A stretch of 64,000 nt of DNA from Clostridia bacterium (GTDB lineage Bacteria; Bacillota; Clostridia; Christensenellales; CAG-138), in the NCBI GenBank assembly GCA_017429985.1, contig JAFRNW010000019.1, positions 1-64,000 on the forward strand. Direction: 5' to 3'. Made by a program: the position numbers and the translations under genes. Numbering within the stretch: the first letter of the stretch is position 1; each line of letters begins with the position of its first letter. The notes below the pieces were generated by a model that searched no databases, had not been told where the DNA came from, and saw nothing but the letters and a program-made list of their open reading frames with translations. Below are positions 15,775-64,000 of this stretch, one piece after another.

Positions 15775-15789
15775 GTAACAAGTATTTGC

Positions 15790-15990: not shown

Positions 15991-16037
15991 CGGATACTGA
16001 TAATCATCAGCCTGACAGGCCAAAAGGGGAAAGAGAC

Positions 16038-45372: not shown

Positions 45373-45375
45373 TTT

Positions 45376-46572: not shown

Positions 46573-46796
46573 AACAGTTAATTGAGATTCTGGAGGATGT
46601 CAATCCGGGCGTGGATTACAATACTTGCACCGATTTGGTTGACGGCGGTTACCTTAATTCCCTCTCCATCCTCGCTATAGTGGCGGAACTGGAAGAAGCA
46701 TTCGACATTGTGATCTCAACAGTAGAGGTAACTCCGAAAAACTTCAACTCCGCCCAGAGTCTTTGGGAAATGGTGCTGCGGCTGAAAGAAGAATAA
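46569..46796 (+). CDS. DltC-like acyl/peptidyl carrier protein
   Basis: 75 aa, the size of DltC. The phosphopantetheine serine is in GGYLNSLSILAIV; the canonical DSL is NSL here, with the serine kept. The start overlaps the decarboxylase stop (ATGA), and the MBOAT gene starts 4 bases after its stop. It should carry the activated amino acid as a thioester to the membrane acyltransferase. Confidence 0.87.
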   Translation: MKQLIEILEDVNPGVDYNTCTDLVDGGYLNSLSILAIVAELEEAFDIVISTVEVTPKNFNSAQSLWEMVLRLKEE

Positions 46797-46800
46797 TACA

Positions 46801-48402
46801 ATGCTCCCGTTGTCTTCCTATTTCTCACTGCTTTACCTAGCAATACTGTTGCCGGGAACCGTGCTGGCTTATACTGTCCTTCCGCAAAAATATCGTCGTG
46901 CAGTACTCTTGCTGAGCAGTTACGCCGTGTTCTGGCTCGTCAGCGGGAAACTGCTGTGCTATCTTCTATTTTCCACTATCTCGGTTCATCATATCGGCTT
47001 GTGGTTGGAGAATACCCAACTCGAGGCAAACAGGCTGCTTGAGACTGCGCCGAAAGAAACGCGAAAGGACATTCGGGCACGGACTCAGCAGAGACGGAAA
47101 AAAATAGTAGCATTTGGGATTGCTGTGCAGTTCGGTATTTTGCTGGCGTTGAAATACGGGGCGTTTTTCATCTCCAACTTCAACGAACTTGCTGACTTAA
47201 TGAAGGTTACAGTGAAACTACCTGTCCCTTCCGTCATTTTGCCGATTGGCATCTCCTTTTATACCATGCAAGCAGCATCCTACATGCTGGATGTGTATCG
47301 AGAGAATATCCCTGCAGACCGAAATCTGATGCGTCTCGCTCTTTACATGAGTTTTTTCCCCCAGCTCATGGAAGGGCCGATCTGCCGATATTCAGAAACC
47401 GCGCAGCAGCTCTGGGACGCTCCGCCTATGCGTTGGAAAAACTTAATGTTAGGCCTCCAACGCATTCTGTGGGGCATCATGAAAAAAATGGTGGTTGCCG
47501 ACCGCTTGAATCTGTTAATCACTGAAGCGTTTGACAACTATGTCCACTACGACGGATTCATGATTGCTGCAGCTGTCGTGTGCTACACAGTTCAACTCTA
47601 TATGGACTTCTCCGGCACCATGGATCTTGTGCTGGGCAGCGGACAGATATTCGGCATCAAACTGCCGGAAAACTTCCAGCGCCCCTTCTTTTCACGCACG
47701 ATTCAGGAGTTTTGGCGTCGCTGGCATATTACGCTTGGTGCATGGTTCCGAGACTACGTTTTTTATCCTATATCACTCAGCGCTCCAATAAAAAAGCTGC
47801 CTCTCCTGCTACAAAAACGGCTGGGAAGAACCTACGGGTTCATTTTTTCCAGTATACCCGCCCTGTTCTGTGTATGGTTATGTAACGGTCTGTGGCACGG
47901 GGCAGGCTGGAACTTTATTTTTTTCGGGATGTACCACTTTGCTTTGATCCTTGTTGAAAATATAATGGAACCCCCTGCTGTCTGGCTGGCAAAAAGGCTC
48001 CATATCAACCGGGACGGCATTCTGTACCGATGTATGCAGATCGTCCGCACCGCCGTACTATTTTGCATCGGCGAACTGTTTTTCAGGGCATCTTCCCTGA
48101 AAGCGGGGTTTGCCATGTTTAAAAAGATATTTACTGATTTTACACTGGCAAGAGTTAAAGATAACACATTCTTTTCCCATGGTGCAGATAAGCATGATTT
48201 TTTAATCGTTGTCGTGACACTGGCGTTGATTCTGGCGGTCGGGTGCATCCAGGAACGAGGAGTTTCCGTGCGACAGTGGATAGAAAAGAGAAATCTTGCG
48301 GTCCGTCTTTCTCTGTGGTATCTTCTGATTCTTTTTATCGTGATATTCGGCGCATACGGTACCGGATATATTCCGGTTGACCCAATCTATGCAGGCTTCT
48401 AG
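46801..48402 (+). CDS. DltB-like MBOAT O-acyltransferase
   Basis: 533 aa with about 11 hydrophobic helices. MBOAT signatures: FFPQLMEGPICRYSE, EFWRRWHITLGAWFRDYVFY and the catalytic histidine in CNGLWHGAGWNFIFFGMYHF. Relatives include DltB, AlgI and PatA, which pass an acyl group across or at the membrane onto a polymer. Here the donor should be the carrier-protein thioester. Longer than DltB (about 400 aa), closer to the AlgI type. Confidence 0.92.
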   Translation: MLPLSSYFSLLYLAILLPGTVLAYTVLPQKYRRAVLLLSSYAVFWLVSGKLLCYLLFSTISVHHIGLWLENTQLEANRLLETAPKETRKDIRARTQQRRKKIVAFGIAVQFGILLALKYGAFFISNFNELADLMKVTVKLPVPSVILPIGISFYTMQAASYMLDVYRENIPADRNLMRLALYMSFFPQLMEGPICRYSETAQQLWDAPPMRWKNLMLGLQRILWGIMKKMVVADRLNLLITEAFDNYVHYDGFMIAAAVVCYTVQLYMDFSGTMDLVLGSGQIFGIKLPENFQRPFFSRTIQEFWRRWHITLGAWFRDYVFYPISLSAPIKKLPLLLQKRLGRTYGFIFSSIPALFCVWLCNGLWHGAGWNFIFFGMYHFALILVENIMEPPAVWLAKRLHINRDGILYRCMQIVRTAVLFCIGELFFRASSLKAGFAMFKKIFTDFTLARVKDNTFFSHGADKHDFLIVVVTLALILAVGCIQERGVSVRQWIEKRNLAVRLSLWYLLILFIVIFGAYGTGYIPVDPIYAGF

Positions 48403-48415
48403 GAGGAACGGCTTA

Positions 48416-49369
48416 ATGATTTATCTAAAACGAACGGGCTGTGTCATGTTATTCCTGCTGGGGCTGCTGGTAATACTGCTTGCTGCCTCTGCCATTTTCA
48501 AGCCAAAGAACAACATCCCATCGGCAGGGATGGAGGAAACACTTGCAAACGGTATTCTGGGTGAGCCGGAAAACACGATTGATGTTTTGATCATTGGTGA
48601 CAGCGAATCCCGTTGCGCCATATGTCCCATGCAAATTTGGAAAGAAACCGGATTCACCACATATGTGTGTGCGACAGCAGCCCAAAAGCTTTCTTACAGT
48701 TATACCATGCTCGACCGCGCATTTCAGCGACAAAAGCCAAAAATCGTAATTCTTGAGACGCTGGCGATTTTCCGGGAGATGTCATTGGAAGACGCGGTTA
48801 AAGAAATATTATATCATAGGCTTCCTGTTCTCCGCTATCATGATCGATGGAAATGTTTGCATGCCAATGATTTTGGTGGTGCGGTTCTGCCAGTCTGGAC
48901 CAATGACAGCAAAGGATATTGGAATACAAAAAAGGTTGATCCCGGTAGTAACGAGCCGTACATGGGTGCCATGGATAACAAATCAAGCGTCTCACTGCTG
49001 AACAGACGTTATGTCCGGGCCATTAAAACACTTTGTGAAAAAAACGGATCCCGACTTCTTCTGTTGAGTACGCCCAGCACCATCAATTGGAATTATGCTC
49101 TGCACAATGGCATTCAGGCAGTAGCTGAGGAACTGGGTATTGAATACATCGACATGAACCTCATGAACGACCGTATCAAAATTGACTGGAGCAGGGATAC
49201 TTTCGACAAGGGCGACCATTTGAACCACAGCGGCGCAGTCAAACTTTCCTTGGTACTGTCAGAGTATCTGCAAGAGCAAGGCATTTTCAAGGATCACCGT
49301 GGCGATCAAGCTTATGCAAAGTGGGAGGATATTCTGAAAAACCGCGGGACCGAACCTGAAGAAGAATAA
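48416..49369 (+). CDS. SGNH/DltD-like membrane-anchored protein
   Basis: 317 aa from the ATG at 48416, preceded by AGGAGG. One N-terminal hydrophobic helix (MLFLLGLLVILLAASAIF) is followed by an extracytoplasmic SGNH-type domain: VLIIGDSESRCAICPMQIW (GDSx nucleophile) and FDKGDHLNHSGAVKLS (Asp/His pair). By analogy with DltD and AlgX/AlgJ it would complete the transfer of the modifying group on the outer face. It is the last gene of the operon. Confidence 0.88.
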   Translation: MIYLKRTGCVMLFLLGLLVILLAASAIFKPKNNIPSAGMEETLANGILGEPENTIDVLIIGDSESRCAICPMQIWKETGFTTYVCATAAQKLSYSYTMLDRAFQRQKPKIVILETLAIFREMSLEDAVKEILYHRLPVLRYHDRWKCLHANDFGGAVLPVWTNDSKGYWNTKKVDPGSNEPYMGAMDNKSSVSLLNRRYVRAIKTLCEKNGSRLLLLSTPSTINWNYALHNGIQAVAEELGIEYIDMNLMNDRIKIDWSRDTFDKGDHLNHSGAVKLSLVLSEYLQEQGIFKDHRGDQAYAKWEDILKNRGTEPEEE

Positions 49370-49468
49370 TTGTTTTCATAATCCTCCCTGCTGGTCTTGA
49401 TAATCTCCGGAGCATGAACGCTCAAATGAGTTCAGAATGCATTTCAAAATGATCGACACAGAAACTAC

Positions 49469-50806
49469 ATGAGCCTGACTATGATTGCGAGACGAATCAT
49501 CACCGTTGTCTTGTTACTCATTGTGATGCTTTTTCTGGAACTGAATCAGCATTTTACATGGGGTATGTTTCTGACCGTTCATTTGACCACTACGATTTTC
49601 ATATTGTTCGAAGCGAAACTTCTGCCGGGAATTCCGCAAGGCAGCAGCGTGGACGGGCTATATCCTCCTTACCGCGCTCATTCTTGTCATCACGTTCCCT
49701 TCCATAATCAGGTCGATGCGATTAACAGAAAAACCTGCAGAGAAACAGGCGCTGTAGCGATGAAGGACGGCAAAGTCAGCGGTGTCATGAGGGCGGACGG
49801 AGCGACGCGGACATCCCGTACTCTGCTCCACCCATGAGAGATCTTTGCTGTAAGGAACCGCAGGACGTGACCGCCTAGGATGGGACCCTAAAAGCAAATC
49901 ATTTTACTGCCATGTCCATGCAGATCCGGAAGCTCCCAATCATAGACTCCCTCACGAATATCATAGACAATCACGATTACAGCTGGCTAGATTTCAGTGA
50001 CAACTATATCGCTACGGCATCTAAGGACTCGCTTTACGAAAATGTTAGGAAACCCGCGGGAGAACAGAAGAATCTCCCGTACTGGTTTTCGTTCACGGCT
50101 ACTCCCTGCTGTCCGGCCAGCCCTGGTACGCGGATTACAGCGGCGAATGCCTAGCGCGGGACAGCGTCATCGTCGTCAATATAGGATGCCGTCTGTGCGC
50201 ATTCAGATTTCTTGCTCTGGACAAACTTGCCGCGGAATCTGAACACTGCACGACCGGAAACCACGATCTTCTGGATTAGATCAAGGCGCTGGAATGGGTC
50301 CGGGACAATATCGCTTCCTTCGGTGGCGATCCTGATAACATCACCGTGGCTTGAGAATCCTCTGGCGCCTCTTCCGTGAGCGTCCTCTGTACTTCGTCTC
50401 TTGCGGCTGTTCCGCTGGGTCATTCTGGAAAGCTCCATCGTGGCTAGCCGGAAGCCGCCTCATTCCTTCTGCTCCATGGAGGAAGCACTGCCTTCTTGAA
50501 AAGAAGTTCTTCCACGATACCATGCAAAAAACGTATCGGATCTGCGCAGACTGCCCGAAGATTCAATCGCGGGATCCATGGATACGGAACACTACATCAC
50601 CGTGGACGGCTACGTCCTGCCTGAAACGCCCTGTCAATCCTATCAAAAGGGCATTCATAACGAGGAAGCTATCCTACACGGGTTTCTGTCGCTTGTCATT
50701 TGCGATGGGAAATGCTGATATTGCCGTCAAAAATAGGGCAACAGCGGTGGCTCCGCCGCATTACGCGGATGGTGTGGTGCAGATTCTGGAGCGTTACTTC
50801 CTGTAA
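49469..50806 (+). pseudogene. Decayed carboxylesterase/lipase (type B) with membrane N terminus
   Basis: Pieces of one protein are spread over several frames. Order: a membrane N terminus (IARRIITVVLLLIVMLFLE, then YILLTALILVITFPSIIRSM in another frame), KDGKVSGVMRADGATRT, SLYENVRKPAGEQKNLPYW, LEWVRDNIASFGGDPDNITV and VDGYVLPETP near the end. The nucleophile elbow reads TGA-ESSGASS, that is GESSG with the first Gly turned into a stop. Multiple stops and shifts make it clearly dead. It lies at the right end of element A. Confidence 0.75.
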
Positions 50807-51140
50807 AAGCATTTGCCTCTAGTATTTATCCAGAGGCAAATGTTTTTCATATAGTATTGGCGCGTGCAAATCAGGTCAACGAAGTGTTCCAATCAGTTTT
50901 ATCCTGCTTTTTTCTCCCTGTTGTTTAATTTCTTTATGCCGGTGAGCAATATAGTTCAAAAGAAAATGTAGTAAAATGTAGTAAATCTGGATTTTAGGAC
51001 CGAAAAACGGCTTTCTTGAAAATGCATAAACAGAAGGATATGCATTTTGAACAATAGACTGTAATTCTTTTTTGTAGAAAAAATCTGCTACAAAAATGCA
51101 AAACAAATGCCCCGAAAACATAGTGTTTTCGGGGCTTTTT
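50807..51140. repeat. Right arm region of element A with terminator
   Basis: No gene. It contains the doubled ATGTAGTAAAATGTAGTAAATC (arm motif, about 50966-50987), an inverted repeat AAAATGCATA / TATGCATTTT (about 51018-51047) and a hairpin CCCCGAAAAC / GTTTTCGGGG with CTTTTTT (51110-51140) abutting the tRNA half. The same sequence of features recurs at 61152-61332. Confidence 0.75.
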
Positions 51141-51185
51141 TGGCGTGCCTGGGAGGATTCGAACCTCTGACCTCAAGAGTCGGAG
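51141..51185 (-). pseudogene. Second tRNA-Arg 3' half at the junction of elements A and B
   Basis: It reads CTCCGAC-TCTTG-AGGTC and then the same T arm and acceptor as the other copies. Its anticodon-stem strand TCTTG does not pair with the local 5' half (ACAGA); it would need CAAGA. It therefore came with an element from another host or tRNA variant and is not the original chromosomal sequence. Confidence 0.8.
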
Positions 51186-51351
51186 GAGTAAGGATAACGA
51201 TTCGAAAAAAAGTTAGTAGCTTGGGGAAAAACGCCTATTTTTGGCGATTTTTGACGGATTGGCTATGTCAAAATACATGATAAAGAGACTTGTTAAAAAA
51301 GGCCTTTTTTATTAGTTCTGTAGTAAAAATGTAGTATGTTTTCAGCTATAG
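51186..51351. repeat. Left arm repeat, copy 2
   Basis: Direct repeat of 43450-43614, including AAAGTTAGTAGC, GGCTATGTCAAAATA, AAAAGGCCTTTTTTA and the doubled TGTAGTA motif (51320-51338). Confidence 0.8.
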
Positions 51352-51359
51352 AACATAAG

Positions 51360-52370
51360 CTATGAAACCCGAATATCTTTCAATTGTGATACATCAAACT
51401 TATAAGAAAGCGGGGCTCTTTCAATGATTAGTGTTCCATCGGGTTTTAATCCAACAATGTAATCATCTCCTGCCCGAACTGCAACTATGTTTTTCCAGTT
51501 TGAAACATCATATGACTTACTGTTTTCTCCCGCAACGACAACTATCCCGTCTTTTTTTAGCCCAATACAGTCATTGTTTTTAACAGAGATAGCTATAATA
51601 TTATCCCATGTTTTGACAGCTTGTTCTATTTTGTAATCATCTAAACCATACCTTGTAGCAGCAACAACAGTTCCGTTCTTTTTAAGACCAAGAACAAGAC
51701 GTTCATCGACAGAGATGGCTACGATATTACTCCAATGTTTTACATTCATGCTCTTATTTGATGAAACAACTCGTCCATCAGCTTTTAATCCTATGGTAAC
51801 GCTATACGCTGTCCCAGCAGCAACGATGTCTCTCCAATTTGTTGGACTGCTATCGTGTTTATCTATTTCCCCAGCATAAAAAACATGCCCATTTTTATCT
51901 ACGCCTACCGCATGCGTAAGCGAGGAGGAAACATCAATAATATCAGACCATTTTGAAACTCTTCCTTCGCCGAAAACGTTCGTCCCGACAAAGGTCACGT
52001 TTCCGGCTGCGTCAATAGCATAAAAGTTTTTGGAATCTGCTGAAATGGAGACTATATTTTCTAATTTTGATATAGCGGAATTGTCTATTTCCTTGCCTGG
52101 TGCTAGCACAGATCCATCTGTTTTAATGACGTAAATAATAGTGCTATCGGCTGCAATATTATTCCTGCGGCAGATGGAAGCTTGAGTTGCTGCATCTTTG
52201 TAATTGCCTGCCGCCTGGTAATAGACCAGCGCATTAAACGAATCACCGGAAGCTTTGTATTCTGTAGCTTTGTTATAATAAACTTTAGGCAAAACAGCGA
52301 AATTCAGAATCAACCAAACTATAGTACAAAACGCAACTAATGTAGCGAGAATATAATGACTGCGAACCAT
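51360..52370 (-). CDS. RCC1-repeat-like protein with N-terminal membrane anchor
   Basis: 336 aa. One N-terminal helix (ILATLVAFCTIVWLILNFAV), a short helical region resembling a repeat (ALVYYQAAGNYKDAATQA) and then about six RCC1-like blades of the form W-x-I-V/I-A-I/V-S...G-L-K-x-D/N-G-x-V. The base composition is AT-richer than the backbone. The blades probably form a propeller outside the membrane. Function unknown. Its stop codon lies 9 bases from the element arm. Confidence 0.8.
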   Translation of the reverse strand: MVRSHYILATLVAFCTIVWLILNFAVLPKVYYNKATEYKASGDSFNALVYYQAAGNYKDAATQASICRRNNIAADSTIIYVIKTDGSVLAPGKEIDNSAISKLENIVSISADSKNFYAIDAAGNVTFVGTNVFGEGRVSKWSDIIDVSSSLTHAVGVDKNGHVFYAGEIDKHDSSPTNWRDIVAAGTAYSVTIGLKADGRVVSSNKSMNVKHWSNIVAISVDERLVLGLKKNGTVVAATRYGLDDYKIEQAVKTWDNIIAISVKNNDCIGLKKDGIVVVAGENSKSYDVSNWKNIVAVRAGDDYIVGLKPDGTLIIERAPLSYKFDVSQLKDIRVS

Positions 52371-52399
52371 CGTATGTACAAATGCTTGGAGTCGAGTTT

Positions 52400-53450
52400 A
52401 TGAAAAGAAAGATTCTTCCCGTTCTGGGGCTTCTGATATGTCTTGCCGCCTGTTCATCCTGTTCACACGCTAAGGGAAAAACAGCTCTTCGTGCGATTAT
52501 CGTTCCGAAATTCGAGATCGGGGAGATGAACGGCGACTTTCCCGGAGAAGCTCAGCTGTTCTATGAGCGCTACTGTCCCGGATGCAGGGAGATCGAAATT
52601 CCGCATATTCCTTCGAGCGGGCATCTCTATGTCAATGAGGAAAACGGCGTCGGGATCCTTGTGACGGGTTCCAGGAAAACAGCCGCCGGGCTTTCACTCA
52701 TGTCGGTCCTCTCCTCGGATCTGTATGATTTCTCCGATACGTATATCGTCTCTGTCGGTTGCTCCGGAGGAAGCGCAACGATGTGCACACTTGGAGATGT
52801 GGTCCTTGTTTCTGCGGTCTGTGATTATGATCTCGGGCATCATGTCGACGCGCATGAAAAAAACGAACGGGAATTCACGCATCATGTGGTTTCCAGACGA
52901 TGCCTATGCGGATTATGAATTCGAGATTCTGAATGCCGAACTTCGTGAAAAAGCATACGAAAGGATCAAGAACTGTTCGCTGCAGACGACAGAACAGGCG
53001 AAAGCCGTTATGGCGGAGAATTTTCCGGCACGTGATGAGGACGGGCTTCTTCCTTCTGTCAAAAAAGGGACTGCACTGTCAGGGGACAATTACTGGAAAG
53101 GGATCTACGGGCATGTGACTGCAAACTTTATTGCGCAGTACTACGGCTGTCCGGATCCGTACTGCGCCACTGAAATGGAGGAGATTGCTGTCGCGAATAC
53201 AACGGAATGCTTTGATATGCTGGATCGCTTGATCTCTCTCCGCGTCATCGTCAATATGGACGTTTTCATGGATGACGAAACGCCCGAAAGCACATGGGGA
53301 GAGTATCAGAGCTTCAATGAAAAGGTTGAAAATGAAAATGCAGAAACGGTGGATATCTTCGTGCCGGCCATGCACAACCTGTTCGACGCAGCAAGCATCG
53401 TGATTGATGCCATACTGGACGGGGCGATTCGATCCGGGACTGCCCCGGAC
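52400..53450 (+). pseudogene. Frameshifted purine nucleoside permease (NUP) family lipoprotein
   Basis: The first frame (from the ATG at 52400) gives a lipoprotein signal (CLAACSSCS) and the NUP-like stretch IIVPKFEIGEMNGDFPGEAQ to VSVGCSGGSATMCTLGDVVL. The second frame continues from about 52885 with WFPDDAYADYEFEILNAELR through GKGIYGHV-type and AASIVIDAILDGA. Together they cover the length of the family (about 350 aa), which belongs to the nucleoside phosphorylase-like fold. The break is near 52880-52890 and not in a homopolymer. The end of the second frame after about 53450 overlaps the opposite gene and is not trusted. Confidence 0.7.
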
Positions 53451-53527
53451 GGGAGATCAAGCCCTGATACAGCGTTCAGATCCGGATCCCGTTCTTCTTA
53501 CGGCTTTCCGCTTCAGTCTTTTCCTTG

Positions 53528-54010
53528 TCAGTCGGACCAGCTGGGCTCGTCCCCCTCTTCGGAAATGCTGACGATATCCACGGCGTTCTCAATCAATTTG
53601 ATCATTTCCCATATGGAACGGAACTGGATGGTCTTGTCCGCCTCCATCCAAGTGATCCGCCCCTGCCAGCTGCTGTTCTGCCTGTGCTGGACGCGGATGA
53701 TGAAAGTGCCGATATCTCCGTGTTTCTGGAGAAGCTGTTCGTCGCTCATGACTTTGGTCCTTTCCTGATGTGATGAAAATGGTTTGTTTTGAGGGAAAAA
53801 GCTTCGTTCGTTAGTCCCAGGATGCGGAAACTGCAGTTCATCAAACAACTTTTCCATGAGAAGCGTCATCTGTCCAAGGTCCGAGAAAGGCGTGGGATCC
53901 GTCTGGTAGGCGTGGAAAAGATCCCCCGTAAATTCCCAGTCGTTTCTGTGGTCGATACAGACGACGACGGCGTTTGGTGCTGCGATATACCACTGTGAAT
54001 GCTGTTCCAT
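53528..54010 (-). CDS. 160-aa protein paired with the BTAD regulator, unknown function
   Basis: 160 aa from the ATG at 54010 (GAGG about ten bases upstream), 11 bases after the regulator stop. Residues 1-45 (YIAAPNAVVVCIDHRNDWEF) look like the end of a sensor or response domain. The C-terminal part GTFIIRVQHRQNSSWQGRIT and TIQFRSIWEMIKLIENAV is a short module I have the impression occurs with clostridial BTAD proteins, but I cannot name it. Cytoplasmic; probably works with the upstream regulator. Confidence 0.7.
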   Translation of the reverse strand: MEQHSQWYIAAPNAVVVCIDHRNDWEFTGDLFHAYQTDPTPFSDLGQMTLLMEKLFDELQFPHPGTNERSFFPQNKPFSSHQERTKVMSDEQLLQKHGDIGTFIIRVQHRQNSSWQGRITWMEADKTIQFRSIWEMIKLIENAVDIVSISEEGDEPSWSD

Positions 54011-54021
54011 AGATGCGCACC

Positions 54022-55227
54022 TCACTCCTGCGGTGTCCAGAACACGCTGTTCACATAGTACTCGATCCCGGTGCGCTGGCGGCCGACGAGAAAGTGCGCA
54101 TTGATGCGCTTCTGGATCACATTGCAGTTCTCGCGCGTGGTGTTGATAAGGAGCACCAGATACTGTCCTTTTCCGTAGCGGCACATTGCGTCACCGCGGC
54201 GGATCGAACGGCGAATTGCATCCCCCATCCTGCTGACCAGCTGATTCAGGACATCTCCCTCGCGCATGGGATTGCCTTTACTGTCCACAATCGTGCACAG
54301 CATGATGTATACCGACTGTCCTCCGCGCTCAAGCATGCGTTCGACCATGCGATAGATTCCAAGGAACACCGGGTAGTTGCAAAGGTATCCGCCTTGCGAT
54401 CTGTCGTGCGCCCCGGTAAGTTCCGACTGGATCTGATCCAAGACAGCGTGCCGGTACTGCATCTTTTCCCCGAGCCGGTCGAATTGCTCCATGAGCCTCT
54501 TCGACGGCCTCAGACCCTGCTCGTTGAAATAAAACTGGACCGTGCTGTCATATAGCTTCCGTGCATCTTCCGCGCGTCCAAGTGAAACGAGTGCTTCCAT
54601 GGTGATCGTTTCCCAATCCGCGAGAGGATCGATCCGGGCGGCATAAAGGCCAAGGTCCTCCATCTGGAAATAATCCTGACTGACTCGGAGGAGCTCAGAC
54701 GCCCGCTCGACAGCGGTGCAGAACAGCTCCTTGTATCTTCTGGCTTCCCGCGCAGCCCAAACGGCGCTCGTATGAAATGTCAGGAACTCTCCGCTGTAGG
54801 CATAGCATGCTTGTAGGTAGAGGGACAGCCGTTCATCCAGATCCTTTGTATTCTCCGCCTCGTGGAACAATTCCTCAAAGGTGAAGGCATCCACGACGGT
54901 GGGAACGGAATCCGACCAGCGAAACACGCCCTTTGTCTGTTCGATGCAGTTTTCCGCCGGAATCCCGGCTTTCAGAAGTTTCTGCTTGGTGTTGTAGATG
55001 ACGCTCTGGAGCGCATGATGGATGTTGTTCATGTCCCTGTCGCTGAACAGCAGCTCTTCCAACTTGTCCCGGGACACGCCCTTTTCCTTTTCATGGATGA
55101 GGATCTGCAGAAGGCTGGTGTTCTGGGAATCGATCGCCTTGGAACCGCCGGCGACAAGTTTCCCGTTCCAACGGAGAGAAAAGCCTCCGAGCATTCTTAC
55201 ATACAGAACGTTTTCCTGCTCTTTCAC
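54022..55227 (-). CDS. SARP/BTAD-type regulator with degenerate GGDEF-like C terminus
   Basis: 401 aa from a GTG start with GAAGGAG. The N terminus VLYVRMLGGFSLRWNGKLV and NIHHALQSVIYNTKQKLLKA form the winged-helix DNA-binding domain of SARP proteins. Helical BTAD repeats follow (about residues 115-265). The C-terminal 130 residues show GGDEF-like spacing (DAIRRSIRRGDAMCRYGKGQ then YLVLLI) but lack the GGDEF catalytic motif, so it should bind rather than make a nucleotide, if anything. It may control the adjacent secreted protein gene. Confidence 0.82.
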   Translation of the reverse strand: MKEQENVLYVRMLGGFSLRWNGKLVAGGSKAIDSQNTSLLQILIHEKEKGVSRDKLEELLFSDRDMNNIHHALQSVIYNTKQKLLKAGIPAENCIEQTKGVFRWSDSVPTVVDAFTFEELFHEAENTKDLDERLSLYLQACYAYSGEFLTFHTSAVWAAREARRYKELFCTAVERASELLRVSQDYFQMEDLGLYAARIDPLADWETITMEALVSLGRAEDARKLYDSTVQFYFNEQGLRPSKRLMEQFDRLGEKMQYRHAVLDQIQSELTGAHDRSQGGYLCNYPVFLGIYRMVERMLERGGQSVYIMLCTIVDSKGNPMREGDVLNQLVSRMGDAIRRSIRRGDAMCRYGKGQYLVLLINTTRENCNVIQKRINAHFLVGRQRTGIEYYVNSVFWTPQE

Positions 55228-55839
55228 TTGGATCTCCTTCGTCGCGGAGGTTTTCCGCGAAAAAACCCGATTTCATCCGCGAAAACGTCAAACACGTGCG
55301 GATTTTCTGTTCAGTAGTAACAAATCATTCTACCACGTACGGAATCTGTACGCACGTTTTTTATCGAGATAACGGTGTCAAACATCTCATATTCTGACAT
55401 CCATTTATATGCGTTAACACGTGTTCGTTTCCTTTCGGTTGAGTCTGCTAACAAAAAACGATGAGACGTTCCGTGTTCTTTTTCAATCTCTTTTCCGCTA
55501 TTCAGTTTTCAAGCTTTCCACAAAAATCGTTGATGAACCACAAAAAAAGCCCATCGTTCCGACAGGCGCTTCATATCCGCTCCGCGCCATCGGTCAAGCT
55601 TTGGCACCTTGCCGTGCGGTCAACGAGATTGTCTCTCGCACGCTCTTTATGGCACTACGACTGTAACAGTTTGGATCCTGCGCGTCAAAGCTTTTCTACG
55701 GATCGGATCATATCACCTCATGCTTTACTGAACCGGAAAAGCCAGACCCCTGCCAACACGAGCAAAAGCCCCAGGAATATCGTTCCTGGGGCTTCTGCAG
55801 ACTAGCTGTGGTTCATTGTTCGTCGGAGGTTCCAATTCA
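55228..55839 (-). other. Intergenic stretch with terminator and an unexplained repeat-like block
   Basis: At 55767-55793 AGCCCCAGGA / TCCTGGGGCT plus a minus-strand TTTTGCT is the terminator of the large secreted-protein gene. At about 55460-55690 lies GC-rich sequence with no good ORF; on the minus strand it ends with CTTGAAAACTGAATAG, similar to the tails of clostridial rRNA spacers. I see no gene. Confidence 0.45.
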
Positions 55840-58800
55840 TCAGAACGCATTCTCAATGGTGAAGAAGTCGTATTCCGGGTGCGCCTCGTCGTAGGAATCC
55901 CTGTCAAGGACCGGGGAATAGGTCGCTACCGCGATCGTTCCCGCTTCGGCGTTCAGGGTAATCATGCGGAAGAAGCCGAGGCCGTTTTCTACGTCTGAAG
56001 CGTAGTTGTACATGATCGCGTTCGCGCTGCGTCCGTCTTCATAGGCCTTGCTCCAGCGCGCTGCGCCTTCCGCATTGCCAGAGAGGATCAGGGAAACGTT
56101 GCTGTTGACAGCGACGATCTCGGATTCGACCAGTTTGCCGAACGCTGTCAGCGTTCCATGATCGAGCGTGTCTGCCGGATTCTTTTCGATGAAGTCATTT
56201 ACAAGGAGAATCACGGTATATTCCGAATACGCGGCAAGCATGTCGTTTACGTACTGGATCCATGCCTGCTGAGCACTGCGCTCTTCATCTGTGGCATTCC
56301 CGTCGAGCACCTTCTGGCTTCCGATGCCTACCATAAGGACCTGATTGTCGGCAAACGGATGGACCCAGACGCTGCCGTTACTGTTTCTTTTTGCTGCTTC
56401 AAAGATACCGTTGCTGAGATAATCCGTATAATCTGCGTCGGCACCGACTTCGTTGCATCCCGCGATGTTCAGATAGGGAAGTTCGCCGTTCTTTCTGTTC
56501 ATCCCGTCCAGCGCATCACGGATCAGCTTCCAGGCGGCTTCGTCCTTGCCGTCGGCAACCGCGTTCCCCGTCCCGATTAGAGCGGATGCTCCAAGGAATC
56601 TGTTCTCTTTCAGATACCGGATCATTGCCTGGTAGGCTTCCGCCTGTTTTCCACCCGCTGTCAGATCAGTATCCGAGGTGAGGATGAAAGACATCGAGCC
56701 GATCATTCCGAGAGGAACCTCTTCGTCCGCAATGGTCGTGGTGGTTGATTTTTTGGTCGGAGTATCTTTTTTCGTTTCCGCCGTGAATGAACCATGGATC
56801 GTTACATCCTGCGCCGGCATCGTGAAGGTCTCACTGTCCCATCCGCTGAATGTATACCCCTTCGCGACAGCGTTTTCCGCGATAACGACCTTGCTGCCGA
56901 ATTTTCTGGCCGTTGCTTCCGGAAGCTCGGATGCACCGGAAGGAACCTTGCCGGAGTACTCATAGGAAACCGTGTACTGATTGCGGTCGTAATAGAGGTT
57001 CAGGACCAGGGAATCGTCCAGTGCGACCGTTCCGTCGGATATGGACGCTGCTTCATTGTAGCGGAAACCTTCGTAGCTGTTGGCGTCCACGCTGATCGCT
57101 TTTCCGGTCAGAGCGCTTTCTTCTTTCTTCTCGGCGAGCGTGTATCCGTCTGTGTCCGCATTTTCGAGGTAATGGTTGACCGTGTACAGGGAGGCCGGAA
57201 CATGGCTGTTGGTGATCACTGCGCGGTTTGCGCCATCGCTTGCAACGGCCTTTTCATATCCGTCCGCAACTTCCGTTTCATCCGCGCTGTACCGGATCAG
57301 CTGATCGGCAGCATAGGCGTCCAGACCCGAGAAGGTGTAAGACCATCCGTTTGCTTCGGAAAGGACCGCTGTCCTGCCTTTGACCGGTTTTCCGTTTGCA
57401 AGAAGCTGCACGGAGACGCTGCCCGGACGGATCCCGTCCTTGTCGTCCGCGTCGTTCCAGACTTTCCGGACGGAAAAGCTTGTCGTGTATTTCGCGTAGA
57501 CGTTGTATTCCTTCGCAGTATTCGCATTCGATGTAACTGCGGGGAGTTTATACTCGAATCCCTTGGAAAGGAGTTCCCCTTTCTCGTTGTACCAGCCCTT
57601 GAACGAGATATCCGCCTTGGATTCTTCTTTCGTCAGGGAAGGCTCATAGCTGTACACGGAGATTCCGGACTTGAACTGCTCCTCGCTGTGTGCCAGCGTG
57701 CCTTTCACATACCAGTTGACCGTAACGGAGGGTTGCCATTTCGCAAGGAAGGTAATGGTCTTCGTGCTCCCGGGCGCCTGATCCGCGCCGTCATAGGTGA
57801 AAGATCGTCCGGCAGTATAGATCGAACCGTCATCGGTGTTGTACCAGTGAACAAACCTGTAGTGACTGACCGGTGTCTTTTTCGACGGATCCGAGAACGT
57901 ATGGGTGAAGCTGGAGGCGGAATCAAGATTGCTCCAGGAACCGGAACCGGTAGAAACGTTGTCGATATAACGGTAGTTCAAATACCAGTTCTGCGTCACT
58001 TCGTATACCGGGGAGATGCTGATGCGGAGATCGCCGTTTTCATCTTCGGTGAACAGTCTTGTCGAACCATCGGTGAAGTAGACCGTTGCTTCGTTGACAC
58101 CGCCGGAGGACTTGTTGCAACGGAACGCGATCTTGGAGATCTCGCTGCTGCCGCCGGCCAGCGTGAATGCGTTCAGGAACTTGTAATTCGCTCCGATCCC
58201 GGAAGCTGTCCGGTTCTTGCCGCCCACATAGGAGAAGAATCCGCTGATCAGTTTGGTCTGGTTGGATGCCGTGAACGATACATACTTTGTCGCAGGAACT
58301 GCTTTTCCGCCGACAGCGCTTACGGTTGCGTCATAGATGCCGGTAATCGCAACGACGATGGACCCTTTGCTGAGCGTGTCGTATGCGGCGGTATAGGTCT
58401 TGTCTCCGCTGACGGACACGACGTTCGGCGTGAATTTCGAAAAGACATAGTAGTTTTTGTCGCTTTCAGCAGATTCCCGGACGGGCGTCTCTCCGCTGTA
58501 TGCGGGAATGGAACCCTTCGCGGCGTATTCTTCCTTCAGCACTGATCCGTCCCAGTTTGTCCAGGTGATCAGGTACATTTCCGAAAAGACCGCGGTGTAG
58601 ACCTGATCGCTGTCCGCTTCCTTGACCGCGGGAGTCCAGCCTTTGAACTGATATCTGCACTTCGCAGAAGCCGCTTTCTCGGGGACTGCGCCAGTATACG
58701 AGGGAATAATTCCCTCTTCCACTTCTTTTGTCATAAGGACTGTTCCGTCCGCGTTTTTCCAGGTAATGGTATAGAACACGGGAACAAGCTTGGTCTCTTC

Positions 58801-59415
58801 CTCTTCCGCGTCTTTGAACGTTTCTTCCTCTTCGGTTTCGAGAGCTTCGGGCAGAGCTTCTGCGATTTCTTCTTTCACCTCAGAAAGCTCTTCTGCATTT
58901 TTATCGGTATCCGCTCCGGAAGCTTCCGCGGCGGACTCCTCGGCTTTCTCCTCTTTCAGGGCCTCGGAGAGATCGGCAATCTCCTTGTCGCCAGCCTCTT
59001 CGACGGCTTCAGAAGCAGCCTGCTCCTCCTCCTTCTCTTCCCGGATTGAAGCCTCATTGACCTTAACGGAATCCGCTTCTTTGATTTCGGCGTTTTCCGC
59101 TTTCTTTTCTTCGGCAGCTGCCGCGATTTCGCTGGAAGCCGGCTTGCTTTCGGCCCTGTCTGCGACGTCTTCCGCCTTTGCTTCCTCAGCTGTGCTGGTT
59201 TTCTCTTCTGATTCCTGCTTGGCAGGACGGATCTCTTCTTTCATTTCCGAAGACTCAGAAGCTTTTTCCGTCTCCTTGACCGCCGACTTATCTGCGATCG
59301 GTTCAGACGGCATGTCCGACACATCGGATCCGTCGGCAAGAGCCGTCGGAACGAGCGCCGCAAGCATCATAACAGCGAGTGTCAGGGAAAGGATTCTCTT
59401 CAAAAACGACTTCAT
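55840..59415 (-). CDS. Large secreted repeat protein with degenerate phosphoesterase-like C terminus
   Basis: 1191 aa. Signal peptide 1-27 (ILSLTLAVMMLAALVPTALA). Residues about 30-205 are Glu/Ala/Lys/Ser-rich and probably helical. Then two Flg_new/InlB-type repeats (YTITWKNADGTVLMTKEVEE and YLITWTNWDGSVLKEEYAAK), a middle region, a Cna_B-like domain (FSVRKVWNDADDKDGIRPGS), a MucBP-like part (VNHYLENADTDGYTL) and another InlB-like repeat. The last 270 residues resemble a calcineurin-like phosphoesterase whose metal motifs are changed (IAGCNEVG for GNHE, LSGNAEG for SGHxHG). No LPXTG or other clear anchor is present. Confidence 0.85.
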   Translation of the reverse strand: MKSFLKRILSLTLAVMMLAALVPTALADGSDVSDMPSEPIADKSAVKETEKASESSEMKEEIRPAKQESEEKTSTAEEAKAEDVADRAESKPASSEIAAAAEEKKAENAEIKEADSVKVNEASIREEKEEEQAASEAVEEAGDKEIADLSEALKEEKAEESAAEASGADTDKNAEELSEVKEEIAEALPEALETEEEETFKDAEEEETKLVPVFYTITWKNADGTVLMTKEVEEGIIPSYTGAVPEKAASAKCRYQFKGWTPAVKEADSDQVYTAVFSEMYLITWTNWDGSVLKEEYAAKGSIPAYSGETPVRESAESDKNYYVFSKFTPNVVSVSGDKTYTAAYDTLSKGSIVVAITGIYDATVSAVGGKAVPATKYVSFTASNQTKLISGFFSYVGGKNRTASGIGANYKFLNAFTLAGGSSEISKIAFRCNKSSGGVNEATVYFTDGSTRLFTEDENGDLRISISPVYEVTQNWYLNYRYIDNVSTGSGSWSNLDSASSFTHTFSDPSKKTPVSHYRFVHWYNTDDGSIYTAGRSFTYDGADQAPGSTKTITFLAKWQPSVTVNWYVKGTLAHSEEQFKSGISVYSYEPSLTKEESKADISFKGWYNEKGELLSKGFEYKLPAVTSNANTAKEYNVYAKYTTSFSVRKVWNDADDKDGIRPGSVSVQLLANGKPVKGRTAVLSEANGWSYTFSGLDAYAADQLIRYSADETEVADGYEKAVASDGANRAVITNSHVPASLYTVNHYLENADTDGYTLAEKKEESALTGKAISVDANSYEGFRYNEAASISDGTVALDDSLVLNLYYDRNQYTVSYEYSGKVPSGASELPEATARKFGSKVVIAENAVAKGYTFSGWDSETFTMPAQDVTIHGSFTAETKKDTPTKKSTTTTIADEEVPLGMIGSMSFILTSDTDLTAGGKQAEAYQAMIRYLKENRFLGASALIGTGNAVADGKDEAAWKLIRDALDGMNRKNGELPYLNIAGCNEVGADADYTDYLSNGIFEAAKRNSNGSVWVHPFADNQVLMVGIGSQKVLDGNATDEERSAQQAWIQYVNDMLAAYSEYTVILLVNDFIEKNPADTLDHGTLTAFGKLVESEIVAVNSNVSLILSGNAEGAARWSKAYEDGRSANAIMYNYASDVENGLGFFRMITLNAEAGTIAVATYSPVLDRDSYDEAHPEYDFFTIENAF

Positions 59416-60034
59416 TTGGAACCTCCGGTTTCGGATCCGCCGCAGCAGATCTCTTTTTCATGTCTTTAGTCTAACCGGGGTGCTGTCACTAAAATAATCA
59501 AAAAAAGCAGAATAAAAAGGTAATTTATCAAAAATTTAGGATCTTCAACAAAAGTTGTGGAAAGCTTGCCTCGTTGAAGGCAGTGATAGGTATTTGATCA
59601 AGGTAAAGAAGTAGTCGTCATTGCGGTATCCGCAGCCGACACGCTTCGTGACCTTGGTCTTATTATTGAATCCTTCCAGCTTTCCGGTACTGATCGGATA
59701 AACCGTTTTAAGATCCTTGACCTGAAACACGCCTATACACTCGTGTTTGAGTACATTGAAGCTTTTTACAATACCGTCAGAATCCATAGCCATTGTAATT
59801 ACATGTCCCCTGATCAGTTCGAAAAGCTTTACCGCAAGCTCACCGTTGCTTAAGGGGATGACCAGGAACCTGTTCTCAGTATTTATTCTCTATGTGGAAA
59901 ATCTCTCATTTTAATTTGCGCTAAATCTTGACATAGGACCACACGGATACCCTTCTCGAGATCATCCGTAATCTCTTTCATTCTTTCATGTTGCTGATCT
60001 GCATCTCTGTCTCCTCTTTTTTGGTAAAAGAAAA
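59416..60034 (-). mobile_element. Transposase remnant (ISL3-like) and flanking decayed sequence
   Basis: Only the C-terminal 70-80 residues of a transposase survive (59545-59793), including YPISTGKLEGFNNKTKVTKR and GCGYRNDDYFFTLIKYLSL, typical of ISL3-like DDE enzymes. The sequence around it up to about 59945 shows no intact frame; GGTCCTATGTCAAGATTTAGCG (minus strand, about 59915-59936) may be an IS end. Not functional. Confidence 0.6.
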
Positions 60035-60055
60035 ACGCCTGCAAAGCAGACGTTT
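60035..60055 (-). terminator. Terminator of the double GNAT gene
   Basis: AACGCCTGC aaa GCAGACGTT stem (one mismatch), followed on the minus strand by TTTTTCTTTT. Confidence 0.65.
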
Positions 60056-60088
60056 AACCAGACAAACTGGAATTTGTCAGTGTGCCGG

Positions 60089-60961
60089 TCAAAGTGATCT
60101 CTGCATACAATACATGGTATGCCCCTTCGGATAATCCTCAAGCACGCCGGTCACTGTCCCATAACCATTCTTTCGGAAAAACCCAACGTTCCAATCATAT
60201 GCTTCAAGAAACACGACGTCGGCCCCGTTTTCTTTGGCCTCCCGCTCATACTCGCGGAGCAGCCGGGTACCGATCCCTTGCCCCCGGTATGGCTCGTCCA
60301 CCCAGAGCGCATCGATATCCGTGCCGTTCCATCCGTCTACGCCACCGACAAGACCGGCTATGATCCTGCCGTTCTCATCCGTGACCTTTTTCTCGATGGA
60401 AACGTATTCGTGCCCGCGCGGCGCGAATGCTTCGACGTGTCTGCGCAGTCTGCCGGAGAGGAACTCCGCATCCTCTTTGCCGCCCGGGACGATCTCATAT
60501 TTATTGGTGTTTGAAGGATCGTGTTCAATTGCGGTTTGATCGAGCCTTTTCGTCATGAAATAGTGCTCATGTCCCTTCGGAACACCCGTCATCGTGTCAT
60601 TCACCATATAGCCGTGGTTTTCGTAGAACGATTTTGCCTGAAAATCGAAAGTTCCGACCATGGCGAGATAGCAGTCAAGCTCTTTTGCTCTCTTCTCAGT
60701 CTCCTTGATCAGCGCGGAGGCAATACCCTGACGACGGTATGCTTCCTCTACCCACAGATCGAATATCGACGCTGTCTTCCGTTCATCGACTGTCAGAATA
60801 CATCCGCCGAGAAGACTTCCTTTTTCATCTGTGACTTTATACACGAATTCTTCTTCCTCGGCACCTTCTTCAGGCGGAGCGATGGTATCGAACACCCGGC
60901 CTGCCTGTTCTTCAATGTATTCAGCGTCTTCTTCAGAACAATGCATCATATTGAATGACAT
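60089..60961 (-). CDS. Tandem GNAT N-acetyltransferase
   Basis: 290 aa made of two GNAT domains, residues about 1-145 and 155-290. Acetyl-CoA loops are VEEAYRRQGIASALI and VDEPYRGQGIGTRLL. Both halves end with a similar GxPKGHxxYxM motif (VPKGHEHYFM, YPKGHTMYCM), so the gene arose by internal duplication. Substrate unknown; resistance to an antibiotic or detoxification is possible but not shown. Confidence 0.88.
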   Translation of the reverse strand: MSFNMMHCSEEDAEYIEEQAGRVFDTIAPPEEGAEEEEFVYKVTDEKGSLLGGCILTVDERKTASIFDLWVEEAYRRQGIASALIKETEKRAKELDCYLAMVGTFDFQAKSFYENHGYMVNDTMTGVPKGHEHYFMTKRLDQTAIEHDPSNTNKYEIVPGGKEDAEFLSGRLRRHVEAFAPRGHEYVSIEKKVTDENGRIIAGLVGGVDGWNGTDIDALWVDEPYRGQGIGTRLLREYEREAKENGADVVFLEAYDWNVGFFRKNGYGTVTGVLEDYPKGHTMYCMQRSL

Positions 60962-61332
60962 TTCATTTCCTCCTCAAATCCCGATTAGCTGAGATCATTA
61001 TCCCAAAGAAGGAATGTCATCGCAACCGCGGGAAGTCAATGTTTTCAATGACTTTATCGGATGAATTTTCATTCGGAATCATTGTATATATGAGGGAGGA
61101 GACAACCGGGAAAAAGACGATAAATACCTGTCAAAAAAACATGATTAAAATAAAAATGTAGTAAAATGTAGTAAATCTGAAAAAACAGCTTAGAAAATGG
61201 TCGTTGAAAATGTATAAAAGCACGGTTTATGCATTTAGAATGGAAGGCTGATGCTGATCCGAGTTGTACCCCCATCAATAACGGAAGCGAAAAAATAAAA
61301 GTCCCGAAAACGTTGATTTTTCGGGACTTTTT
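60962..61332. repeat. Right arm region of element B with terminator
   Basis: No gene. It holds ATGTAGTAAAATGTAGTAAATC (about 61157-61178), an inverted repeat AAATGTATAAA / TTTATGCATTT (about 61208-61237) and the hairpin GTCCCGAAAA / TTTTCGGGAC with TTTTTT (about 61300-61332), the same order as at the right end of element A. Confidence 0.7.
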
Positions 61333-61409
61333 TGGCGTGCCTGGGAGGATTCGAACCTCTGCCCTTTGGAGTCGGAGTCCAACGCTCTTTCCAGCTGAGC
61401 TACAGGCAC
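61333..61409 (-). tRNA. tRNA-Arg (anticodon CCG), complete
   Basis: 77 nt including encoded CCA. Acceptor GTGCCTG / CAGGCAC, D arm GCTC-AGCTGGAAA-GAGC, anticodon arm TTGGA-CTCCGAC-TCCAA (CCG, reads CGG), T arm AGAGG-TTCGAAT-CCTCC with one A-C mismatch at its base. Its D and anticodon arms differ from those of the split chromosomal gene, so it was brought by an element and now probably serves as the functional gene. The promoter at 61589-61617 reads through the orphan 5' half into it. Confidence 0.93.
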
Positions 61410-61452
61410 ACAATAAAGTTTATGCATTTTTCAAGAACCATAGACCGTCAGC
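61410..61452. other. 43-bp remnant between two tRNA-Arg sequences
   Basis: On the minus strand the orphan 5' half continues as GCTGACGGTCTATGGTTC and then TTGAAAAATGCATAAAC before the complete tRNA. The last part resembles the arm inverted repeat near 51013 (CTTGAAAATGCATAAAC). It is probably what remains of a further element at this site. Confidence 0.5.
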
Positions 61453-61491
61453 GTCGGAGTCTGTCACTCTATCCAACTGAGCTACAGGCAC
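61453..61491 (-). pseudogene. Orphan 5' half of the original tRNA-Arg(CCG)
   Basis: GTGCCTG-TA-GCTC-AGTTGGATA-GAGT-G-ACAGA-CTCCGAC, then unrelated sequence. ACAGA pairs with TCTGT of the 3' half at 43405-43449, not with the copies at 51141 or 61333. It is thus the host promoter-proximal part of the disrupted gene. Confidence 0.85.
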
Positions 61492-61588
61492 AGGGCGCGG
61501 CTGGGATTCATGGACCGGCGTACCGGAAGCGTGACCCGTTCGTGATCACCCCGCGGATCTTTCCGCGATGGTTTTGCGCGCGAAAATA

Positions 61589-61617
61589 ATTATATCACAT
61601 CGATTCAGTCAGGACAA
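61589..61617 (-). promoter_or_regulatory. Promoter of the tRNA-Arg locus
   Basis: On the minus strand TTGTCC (61612-61617), a 17-bp spacer and TATAAT (61589-61594), overlapping the end of radA. It originally drove the now split tRNA and should now drive the imported copy. Confidence 0.5.
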
Positions 61618-62942
61618 TATCGAATCGTATCGATCGCTTCTTCAATGGTCGCGACGGAAATCAAAGTAACGCCGTCGGCAGCTTTCGGATGCGCCGATTT
61701 CGGAACGATGACCCTGCGGTATCCCAGCCGGGCGCATTCCTTCAGTCTGGTGTCCAGCTGCGCCACGCTTCGGAGTTCCCCGGTCAGTCCGAGTTCTCCG
61801 ATGCAGGCGGTGTCGGGAGGAAGAGGATGGCGGTAGAAAGCGGAGGCAACGCAGAGAGCGACCGCAAGATCCACGCCGCGTTCATCCAGACGGAGATTGC
61901 CGACGACATTGATGTACACGTCCTGATCGGAAAGCCTGATCTGGGCCTTCTGTTCCAGAACGGCGAGCAGGAGGCTCAATCTGCCCGCGTCAACTCCGGA
62001 GGCGGTTCTGCGGGGACTTCCGAAGGAGGTCGGATTCAGCAGCGCCTGAATTTCCGCGAGCATTGGCCTGGAACCTTCCACCGTGCAGGTAACCGCGCAC
62101 CCCGGATACCGTTCACCGGAAAGGAACAGCCTTGACGGGTCGGTGACCTGCTGCATGCCGGTATCCGTCATTTCGAAGACACCGATCTCGTTCGTGGACC
62201 CGAAACGGTTCTTGACCGCGCGAAGGAGGCGGAGCCCTGCGTGCCGGTCTCCTTCAAAATAGAGAACGGTGTCGACGATATGTTCCAGAACACGGGGACC
62301 GGCAATCGCGCCTTCTTTTGTGACGTGTCCGACGATCAGCACGACCGTGCCGTTTTCCTTGGCGTATCTGGTCAGTTCGGCGGTACAGAGCCTGACCTGA
62401 CTGACGCTTCCGAGCGCGCTTTCGGATTCCTCGGAATAAAGGGTCTGGATGGAATCGACGATCAGGATGTCGCATTTGGTAGCCTTGGCCTGGTCCAGAA
62501 TGCGTTCGAGAGAGGTTTCGCACAGCAGCAGGATGTCCCCGCTGACTTTCAGACGGTCCGCCCGGAGCTTCAGCTGGGCGGAACTCTCCTCTCCGGACGC
62601 GTACAGCACGGTGCTGTTTGCGGACATGGAGTCAGCTGCCTGCATCAGTAACGTGGATTTTCCGATTCCGGGATCCCCGCAGAGAAGCGCGACCATGCCG
62701 GACAGCAGTCCGCCGCCCGTCACTCTGTCAAGCTCGGACATGCCGGTCGAGATCCTGGCTGTATGGCGGACCGACACCTCGGAAAGATGCTGAACGGCTC
62801 CGCCGGATGAGGCCGGACGTATCTTGATCTGCTGGTCTTCCACGATGGTGTTCCAGCTGCCGCATGCGGGACAGCGCCCGAGCCATTTCATGCTCTCGAA
62901 CCCGCATTCCCCGCAGATATAAACTGTCTTCGTTTTTGCCAT
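61605..62942 (-). CDS. radA: DNA repair protein RadA
   Basis: 445 aa. N-terminal C4 zinc finger (CGECGFESMKWLGRCPACG), Walker A CGDPGIGKSTLLMQAA, the RadA-specific KNRFG motif (VKNRFGSTNEIGVFEM) and a C-terminal Lon-protease-like domain (DLAVALCVASAFYRHPLPPD). It is a branch-migration helicase in homologous recombination. Chromosomal backbone gene flanking the island on the right. Confidence 0.96.
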   Translation of the reverse strand: MAKTKTVYICGECGFESMKWLGRCPACGSWNTIVEDQQIKIRPASSGGAVQHLSEVSVRHTARISTGMSELDRVTGGGLLSGMVALLCGDPGIGKSTLLMQAADSMSANSTVLYASGEESSAQLKLRADRLKVSGDILLLCETSLERILDQAKATKCDILIVDSIQTLYSEESESALGSVSQVRLCTAELTRYAKENGTVVLIVGHVTKEGAIAGPRVLEHIVDTVLYFEGDRHAGLRLLRAVKNRFGSTNEIGVFEMTDTGMQQVTDPSRLFLSGERYPGCAVTCTVEGSRPMLAEIQALLNPTSFGSPRRTASGVDAGRLSLLLAVLEQKAQIRLSDQDVYINVVGNLRLDERGVDLAVALCVASAFYRHPLPPDTACIGELGLTGELRSVAQLDTRLKECARLGYRRVIVPKSAHPKAADGVTLISVATIEEAIDTIRYCPD

Positions 62943-63044: not shown

Positions 63045-64000
63045 ATGACGAAAGTTGATATATTCTCCGGATTCCTCGGAGCAGGGAAAACAACGCTGAT
63101 CCGCAAACTGATCCGGGAGGCGTATCAGGGCGAGAAACTGGTTCTGATCGAAAATGAGTTCGGCGAGATCGGTATCGACGGGACATTCATGCAGGATGCG
63201 GGGATTGAAGTAACGGAGCTGAACTCCGGCTGCATCTGCTGCTCGCTTGTGGGTGATTTCGGGAAAGCGCTCAAGATGGTGGTCGACACCTATGCGCCCG
63301 ACAGGATCCTGATCGAGCCCTCCGGCGTCGGCAAGCTTTCCGACGTGACGCTGGCGGTGGAATCGTCCGGCGCGAAAGATCTCGTGATCAATTCCATGAC
63401 GACCGTGGTGGACGCCAAAAAAGCAAAGGCATACATCGCCAATTTCGGCGAGTTCTACAACAACCAGATCGAAGCTGCGAGCTGTATCGTGCTCAGCCGG
63501 ACGGATGATATCTCCGAAAAGAAACTTGCGGACGTCGTTGCGCTTCTGAAACAGCACAATCCGAACGCGACGGTCATCACGACGCCGTGGCCGCAGCTCG
63601 ACGGGGAGACGATCCTGTCCGCCATGGAAAAGAAAGACACGCTTGCGGAAGCGCTGAAAGAACTGGCTGAACAGGCGGAACATGAAGAACATCATCACCA
63701 TCACCATGATGAGGATGAGGACGAACATGAAGAACATCATCACCATCACCATGATGAGGATGAGGATGAGGACGAACATGAGCATCATCACCACCATCAT
63801 CACGACGAGGATGAGGATGAGGACGAACATGAGCATCATCACCACCATCACCACGACGAAGATGAGGATGAGGACGAGCATGAATACCATCACCACCATC
63901 ATGACGGGCACGGGCATCACCATCATCATCACGGCCATGACGCGGACGAGGTGTTCGTAAGCTGGGGACTGGAAACGCCAAGAAAGTATTCCGAAGAGGA
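63045..64000 (+). CDS. CobW/COG0523-family metallochaperone GTPase with His/Asp/Glu repeat (runs off the window)
   Basis: At least 318 aa; the gene has no stop before the window edge. ATG at 63045 after ATGGAGG. GTPase motifs: FSGFLGAGKTTLIRKL (Walker A) and ENEFGEIGIDG. The hallmark metal motif is CICC in NSGCICCSLV. Residues about 210-300 are four or five repeats of HHHHHH-DEDEDEDEHEH type, coded by near-identical DNA, followed by GHGHHHHHHGHDADE. COG0523 proteins deliver zinc, nickel or cobalt; a His-rich insert is usual, but this one is unusually long and alternates acidic and His blocks. The C-terminal domain starts at the edge (VFVSWGLETPRKYS). Confidence 0.9.
   Translation, partial: MTKVDIFSGFLGAGKTTLIRKLIREAYQGEKLVLIENEFGEIGIDGTFMQDAGIEVTELNSGCICCSLVGDFGKALKMVVDTYAPDRILIEPSGVGKLSDVTLAVESSGAKDLVINSMTTVVDAKKAKAYIANFGEFYNNQIEAASCIVLSRTDDISEKKLADVVALLKQHNPNATVITTPWPQLDGETILSAMEKKDTLAEALKELAEQAEHEEHHHHHHDEDEDEHEEHHHHHHDEDEDEDEHEHHHHHHHDEDEDEDEHEHHHHHHHDEDEDEDEHEYHHHHHDGHGHHHHHHGHDADEVFVSWGLETPRKYSEE

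Follow-up and report, generated by a model that had tools for sequence, protein, structure and literature searches.

A tRNA-Arg(CCG) gene split by two tandem units without recognised integrases, and a whole replacement tRNA, in a Clostridia genome

How does a bacterial chromosome come to carry the 5' half of a tRNA-Arg(CCG) gene directly in front of a different, complete gene for the same tRNA? The question arises in a stretch of 64,000 nucleotides from a Clostridia bacterium (assembly GCA_017429985.1, contig JAFRNW010000019.1, positions 1 to 64,000), hereafter the window, downstream of the host gene radA (61605-62942). This gene and all tRNA pieces described here lie on the minus strand, and tRNA-Arg(CCG) stands just past radA in 6 of 30 radA loci, our own locus counted. 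The orphan 5' half (61453-61491) stops at the anticodon loop, ends in the core CTCCGAC (61459-61453) and is not called as a tRNA. A spacer of 43 bp follows (61410-61452), tRNA-like at its beginning (anticodon 3' stem and variable loop), and after it comes the complete gene (61333-61409), found by ARAGORN and by Rfam (RF00005, 64.7 bits). The 5' halves of orphan and complete gene share 34 of 40 bases. Both have one and the same acceptor stem and anticodon, while the anticodon stem is ACAGA in the orphan and TTGGA/TCCAA in the complete gene. An earlier note on this DNA had described a complete tRNA-Arg(CCG) beside an orphan half, with different stems but the same acceptor and anticodon, and our comparison of the sequences agrees.

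The note had missed two further pieces. BLAST of the orphan-to-replacement stretch against the window returned two more minus-strand 3' halves, 51185-51138 (stem TCTTG) and 43449-43402 (stem TCTGT). When joined by script to the orphan, the second gives a 77-nt tRNA with every stem paired; with the first, two pairs of the anticodon stem are mismatched. Since 43449-43402 pairs perfectly with the orphan (ACAGA/TCTGT), we take it to be the native 3' half. Read from sequence, the native tRNA-Arg(CCG) gene is thus split into a 5' half (61491-61453) and a 3' half (43449-43402) separated by 18 kb that hold two units, E1 and E2. The claim that the host gene was destroyed stands, as its halves rejoin into a perfect tRNA. 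The claim that the insertion brought a whole tRNA and not just a 3' end also stands, but not that of a single element, since two are present.

A plain tandem duplication of the host tRNA gene, with decay of the first copy and no element involved, would be another account. Many loci show a period of 83 bp, which would correspond to a 77-nt tRNA plus 6 nt, and some tRNA-like positions are kept in the spacers. Such a duplication leaves unexplained the two extra 3' halves on the same strand, the homologous arms described below and the perfect native 3' half at a distance of 18 kb; this displaced half refutes it for the window, and we regard it as hardly credible. Duplication may still be the origin of the tRNA carried by the element. 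We conjecture that the element originally acquired its whole tRNA from a tandem tRNA pair of a host, by excision from the upstream copy, as the 83-bp period suggests.

The unit next to the orphan, E1, spans 10.3 kb (51186-61452, minus strand). It begins with the spacer and includes the replacement tRNA, a double GNAT protein, a fragment of an ISL3 transposase, a Cna_B surface protein, a BTAD regulator, an RCC1-like protein and a purine nucleoside permease. The permease gene (52382-53768) is broken into two overlapping frames, and E1 is therefore probably decaying. The second unit, E2, spans 7.7 kb (43450-51178, minus strand) and has its ORFs on the plus strand: an AMP-binding enzyme, a PLP decarboxylase, an MBOAT protein and one ORF, the fourth, that matches no Pfam family. 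It starts with the 3' half of a second imported tRNA (51138-51185), whose 5' half is absent from the window. The G+C content is 0.496 in E1 and 0.478 in E2, against 0.56 in the flanks. Genes for RCC1-like and MBOAT proteins, with low identity to those of E1 and E2, also occur close to the corresponding tRNA sites of relatives (L123, L190, L198, L116, L200 and others).

Both units have att-like ends. The paired repeat ACTACA-N4/5-ACTACA occurs at both ends of E1 and of E2, always on the minus strand, and is not found in positions 1-43000 of the window. At the tRNA ends it lies 205 bp from the core of the replacement tRNA in E1 (N4, 61157-61172) and 203 bp from the E2 core in E2 (50967-50982). 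At the far ends it lies 150 bp from the core in E1 (N5, 51319-51335) and 149 bp in E2 (43582-43598), and this distance is 148-150 bp in every far end of a relative in which the repeat was found, two of which bear a second copy further out. These pairs would fit arm sites of an integrase. Homology between the far ends of the two units extends over about 170 bp, and arm plus tRNA half are 90% identical.

The units themselves seem to lack the enzyme. A Pfam scan of 11 ORFs in them recognised no integrase and no phage structural genes, the domains being those of cargo, and tblastn with the integrase of a related element found no match in the window. Related elements do carry recombinases. A tyrosine recombinase lies just behind the replacement tRNA in one locus (L164) and is truncated or cut in two others (L175, L190), and five gammaproteobacterial loci have recombinases (L129, L138, L144, L153, L159), with an Arm-DNA-bind_2 domain in all four that were scanned, that is, all of these except L129. 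These enzymes were placed within the loci examined, and far ends were mapped for some elements only. Having cargo and no integrase, E1 and E2 were probably mobilised in trans, or are remnants.

Where did the crossover take place? In a classical tRNA island it would have occurred in the complete tRNA, its 3' half being restored by the element, and the orphan would be a separate, decayed duplicate. This layout, a complete tRNA and a displaced 3' fragment with no orphan, is known in the family (L105, L109), and the distance from repeat to core, measured from the complete tRNA in E1, is close to that of E2 (205 and 203 bp). Yet the complete tRNA, whose own stem is perfect, pairs at only 2 of 5 positions with the distal 3' half of the window, and the orphan at 5 of 5. 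A comparison of 65 distinct sites (window included, repeated copies of one site merged) bears on the same point. In 29 pairs of sites with spacers at least 90% alike, identity averages 0.948 in the spacer, 0.921 in the next tRNA and 0.373 in the DNA immediately upstream of the orphan. Spacer and complete tRNA being alike and upstream DNA unlike, we conclude that the first two move as one block and that the orphan is part of the host, which puts the junction at the orphan and makes the classical island very unlikely.

Distal fragments in a wider set of genomes point the same way. We inspected 25 genomes, of which 13 entered the pairing table. One more (G127) was set aside, its two copies being identical in the stem. 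In the other 11 a matching distal fragment was looked for and not found, which counts against our reading (G001, G082, G092, G119, G120, G121, G124, G128-G131). In all 13 genomes with a discriminating fragment, the better of two being taken in G069, the fragment pairs at 5 of 5 positions with the stem of the (outermost) orphan, and its overall fit to the neighbouring complete gene is poorer. G088 has two stacked orphans, and it is the outer one whose stem and acceptor agree with the distal fragment, the order to be expected if outer orphans are the older ones. In Marinomonas communis DSM 5604, a distance of 46 kb separates the complete tRNA from the matching 3' half. We then profiled the element end past the core in 63 sites (those with too little DNA past the second core were dropped), 45 of which remained after thinning. 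In these 45, agreement with the tRNA of the site itself is 0.704 over the first 12 positions past CTCCG (shuffles: 0.258) and is at background beyond them. By this profile, what the element retains of a tRNA is the anticodon 3' stem and variable loop and nothing further, a stretch sufficient for an integrase core.

The arrangement is not peculiar to this genome, contrary to what a reading of the split and replaced tRNA as a single occurrence would imply. A single scan of 84,980 species genomes found the same anatomy, an orphan half followed by a complete gene, in 60 contigs. In the family of the window, 23 of 103 genomes match the pattern and none matches a reversed control, which excludes chance. 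By label, 25 contigs come from Clostridia, Clostridiales, Eubacteriales or Bacillota and 34 from Proteobacteria or Mariprofundaceae; the remaining one, labelled Gracilibacteria, has a spacer of clostridial type and may be misassigned. The recurrent sites are mostly from Clostridia and Gammaproteobacteria. The 60 contigs include 64 sites. At none of these is the orphan callable as a tRNA, and at 59 the second gene is called Arg(ccg), the other five being four outer members of stacks and one gene cut by the end of its record. Stacked orphans occur in 4 of the 60 contigs.

Two relatives show further variants. Positions 2061-3500 of L107 (G082:C6) hold, in this order, a far arm, the core CTCCTAAG, a spacer, a complete tRNA-Arg(CCT), about 1.1 kb of further DNA, another far arm and a tRNA-Arg(CCT) 3' fragment; to judge from its layout, this is the same design at another tRNA. 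In L111 and L112 (G001:C8:47216, 50236, 71856), three complete tRNA-Arg(CCG) genes lie within 25 kb, the third of which combines the 5' acceptor GTGCCTG with the 3' acceptor CGGGCAC, as expected of a recombinant of two genes.

If the native gene was lost, the cell should need the imported one. The assembly (98.1% complete, 46 contigs) has 49 tRNA matches, 48 of them classified by ARAGORN, and the search for another tRNA-Arg(CCG) that the earlier note had proposed returned none: arginine anticodons are acg, tct and ccg alone, and the imported copy is the only ccg among the 48. Its Rfam score is in the middle of the range of tRNAs in this genome. Among the 15,164 codons of 33 long ORFs in the window, CGG occurs 198 times, so that the cell presumably needs a reader for it, and the imported tRNA is the only such reader found in the assembly. 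The cell may depend on the imported tRNA, and the gene could possibly act as a dependence device.

Expression of the replacement may rely on what the host left in place. The sole promoter-like site within 61250-61700 (61589-61617, minus strand) matches the consensus as TTGTCC-17-TATAAT, with a TG before the second hexamer, and lies upstream of the orphan, 98 bp ahead of it. We found no terminator-like site on the same strand between it and the new tRNA, past which lies a hairpin like that of an intrinsic terminator (61297-61331, minus strand). Transcription from the old host promoter is therefore plausible, and the position of the replacement tRNA directly past the attachment core makes it probable that this promoter is used.

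Taken together, these observations lead us to propose, with a probability of roughly 0.85, a history of insertion at the core, replacement of the tRNA and stacking, with two integrase-less units now in tandem. An element of the tyrosine-integrase type would insert into the sole tRNA-Arg(CCG) gene, at a core of 7 bp in the anticodon loop (CTCCGAC). Past the core, its end would carry no more of a tRNA than the anticodon 3' stem and variable loop before diverging, and this divergence would leave the host tRNA without reconstruction. A whole tRNA-Arg(CCG) about 40 bp further on would take over the lost function, probably by means of the host promoter. The imported tRNA would also provide a new intact core, at which a later element could insert and push the older one outward; insertions can stack because each leaves a fresh target.

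The order of the pieces in the window adds a complication, because simple serial insertion does not give it when the 5' half of the E2 tRNA is missing. Joint arrival or movement of E1 and E2 would explain this, and so would the loss of one 82-bp core-to-core unit. In the first case, E1 and E2 could have come as one composite circle formed elsewhere. A single insertion then accounts for the missing half, and the 3' half at the join of E1 and E2 resembles the complete replacement tRNA of another genome (G012/L164, stem TCTTG); set against this, none of the loci listed is a donor that has E1 and E2 in this order. We give joint arrival slightly less than an even chance. We saw neither an empty site of this strain nor a circular form, and a search for the empty site in relatives, through the gene past 43402, gave no match among the loci examined. 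Candidates for a free circular form in viral contigs gave no support: three of four matches are tRNA clusters and one is ambiguous. The motif ACTACATTTTACTACATTTT occurs in three viral contigs with no tRNA on the stretches inspected, and at 30596-30581, outside the elements, 16 bp match the spacer; we judged both to be due to chance.

The insertion and replacement that we propose follow a principle that is already published as tRNA-dependent lysogeny, described by Guerrero-Bustamante and Hatfull (2024) for actinobacteriophages that use Lys, Ile2 or Leu tRNAs (PMC10865867). The supply of a whole tRNA, which the earlier note had put forward, is therefore not a new idea. According to the accessible text of that paper, the two systems share integration in a tRNA gene, a short core, a host tRNA that is not rebuilt and an element-borne replacement tRNA of the same isotype. 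In the window, the core is CTCCGAC, orphan plus spacer is uncallable as a tRNA, and a complete tRNA-Arg(CCG) is present at 61333-61409. Unlike the phages, E1 and E2 encode no recognised tyrosine integrase and are not identified as temperate phages; their cargo is non-phage and their hosts are Clostridia and, for relatives, Gammaproteobacteria. The placement differs as well. In phage Fionnbharth the tRNA gene has a promoter to itself and overlaps with gene 37 (PMC10865867), while the tRNA of the window is an Arg(CCG) directly past the core, where stacking is possible. The principle is also discussed for Sinorhizobium prophages, in the accessible parts of PMC11476347 and PMC12429752.

Other known systems resemble the window in part, as far as the accessible texts on them go. 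Islander describes islands with tyrosine integrases in tRNA genes, for which tandem arrays are known and the site is centred on the anticodon in 2083 of 3919 cases (PMC4383910). A classical island of this kind rebuilds the tRNA with its own fragment; in the window no element 3' half rebuilds the host gene, and a whole second gene is present instead. Cis-mobilizable elements that grow by accretion are tandem units with att ends and no integration genes (PMC3146451), and E1 and E2 likewise have att-like ends, stand in tandem and lack integration genes. The known cases lie at rebuilt targets (ssrA), whereas each unit of the window brought a tRNA. Tycheposons are cargo islands beside tRNA genes, as here, but their unit includes a tyrosine recombinase, and the text accessible to us mentions no whole tRNA brought as a replacement (PMC10872708). 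Three features had no counterpart in the open-licence literature, to the extent that its text was accessible: a replacement tRNA directly past the core, the stacking of orphan halves, and integrase-less units such as these.

These differences may matter beyond this genome. The 2024 paper raises, in its accessible text, the question of how prevalent the principle is outside actinobacterial phages (PMC10865867), and our scan answers it with dozens of sites, which come from Clostridia and Gammaproteobacteria and lie in islands that are not recognised phages. Stacked orphan halves are a readable record of past insertions, and programs that seek islands by rebuilt tRNAs alone would misplace such elements. 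Much more tentatively than the insertion history itself, and somewhat short of an even bet, we suggest a self-renewing cassette system. Each element would destroy its target tRNA and deliver the sole decoder of CGG, which is also the next insertion site; integrase-less cargo units would stack by the host promoter, like integron cassettes, and the cell would depend on the newest unit.

Some minor features deserve mention. Close behind the replacement tRNA, two unrelated lineages encode, on the opposite strand, proteins that we take by eye to be macro-domain-like (L168, 421-1470; L170, 378-1589; coordinates start from the complete tRNA). The window also has a raiA RNA motif at 15788-15992 (plus strand, 169.7 bits), and at 63577-63981 it shows low-complexity ORFs in overlapping frames, rich in Met/Val/Thr and in His/Arg.
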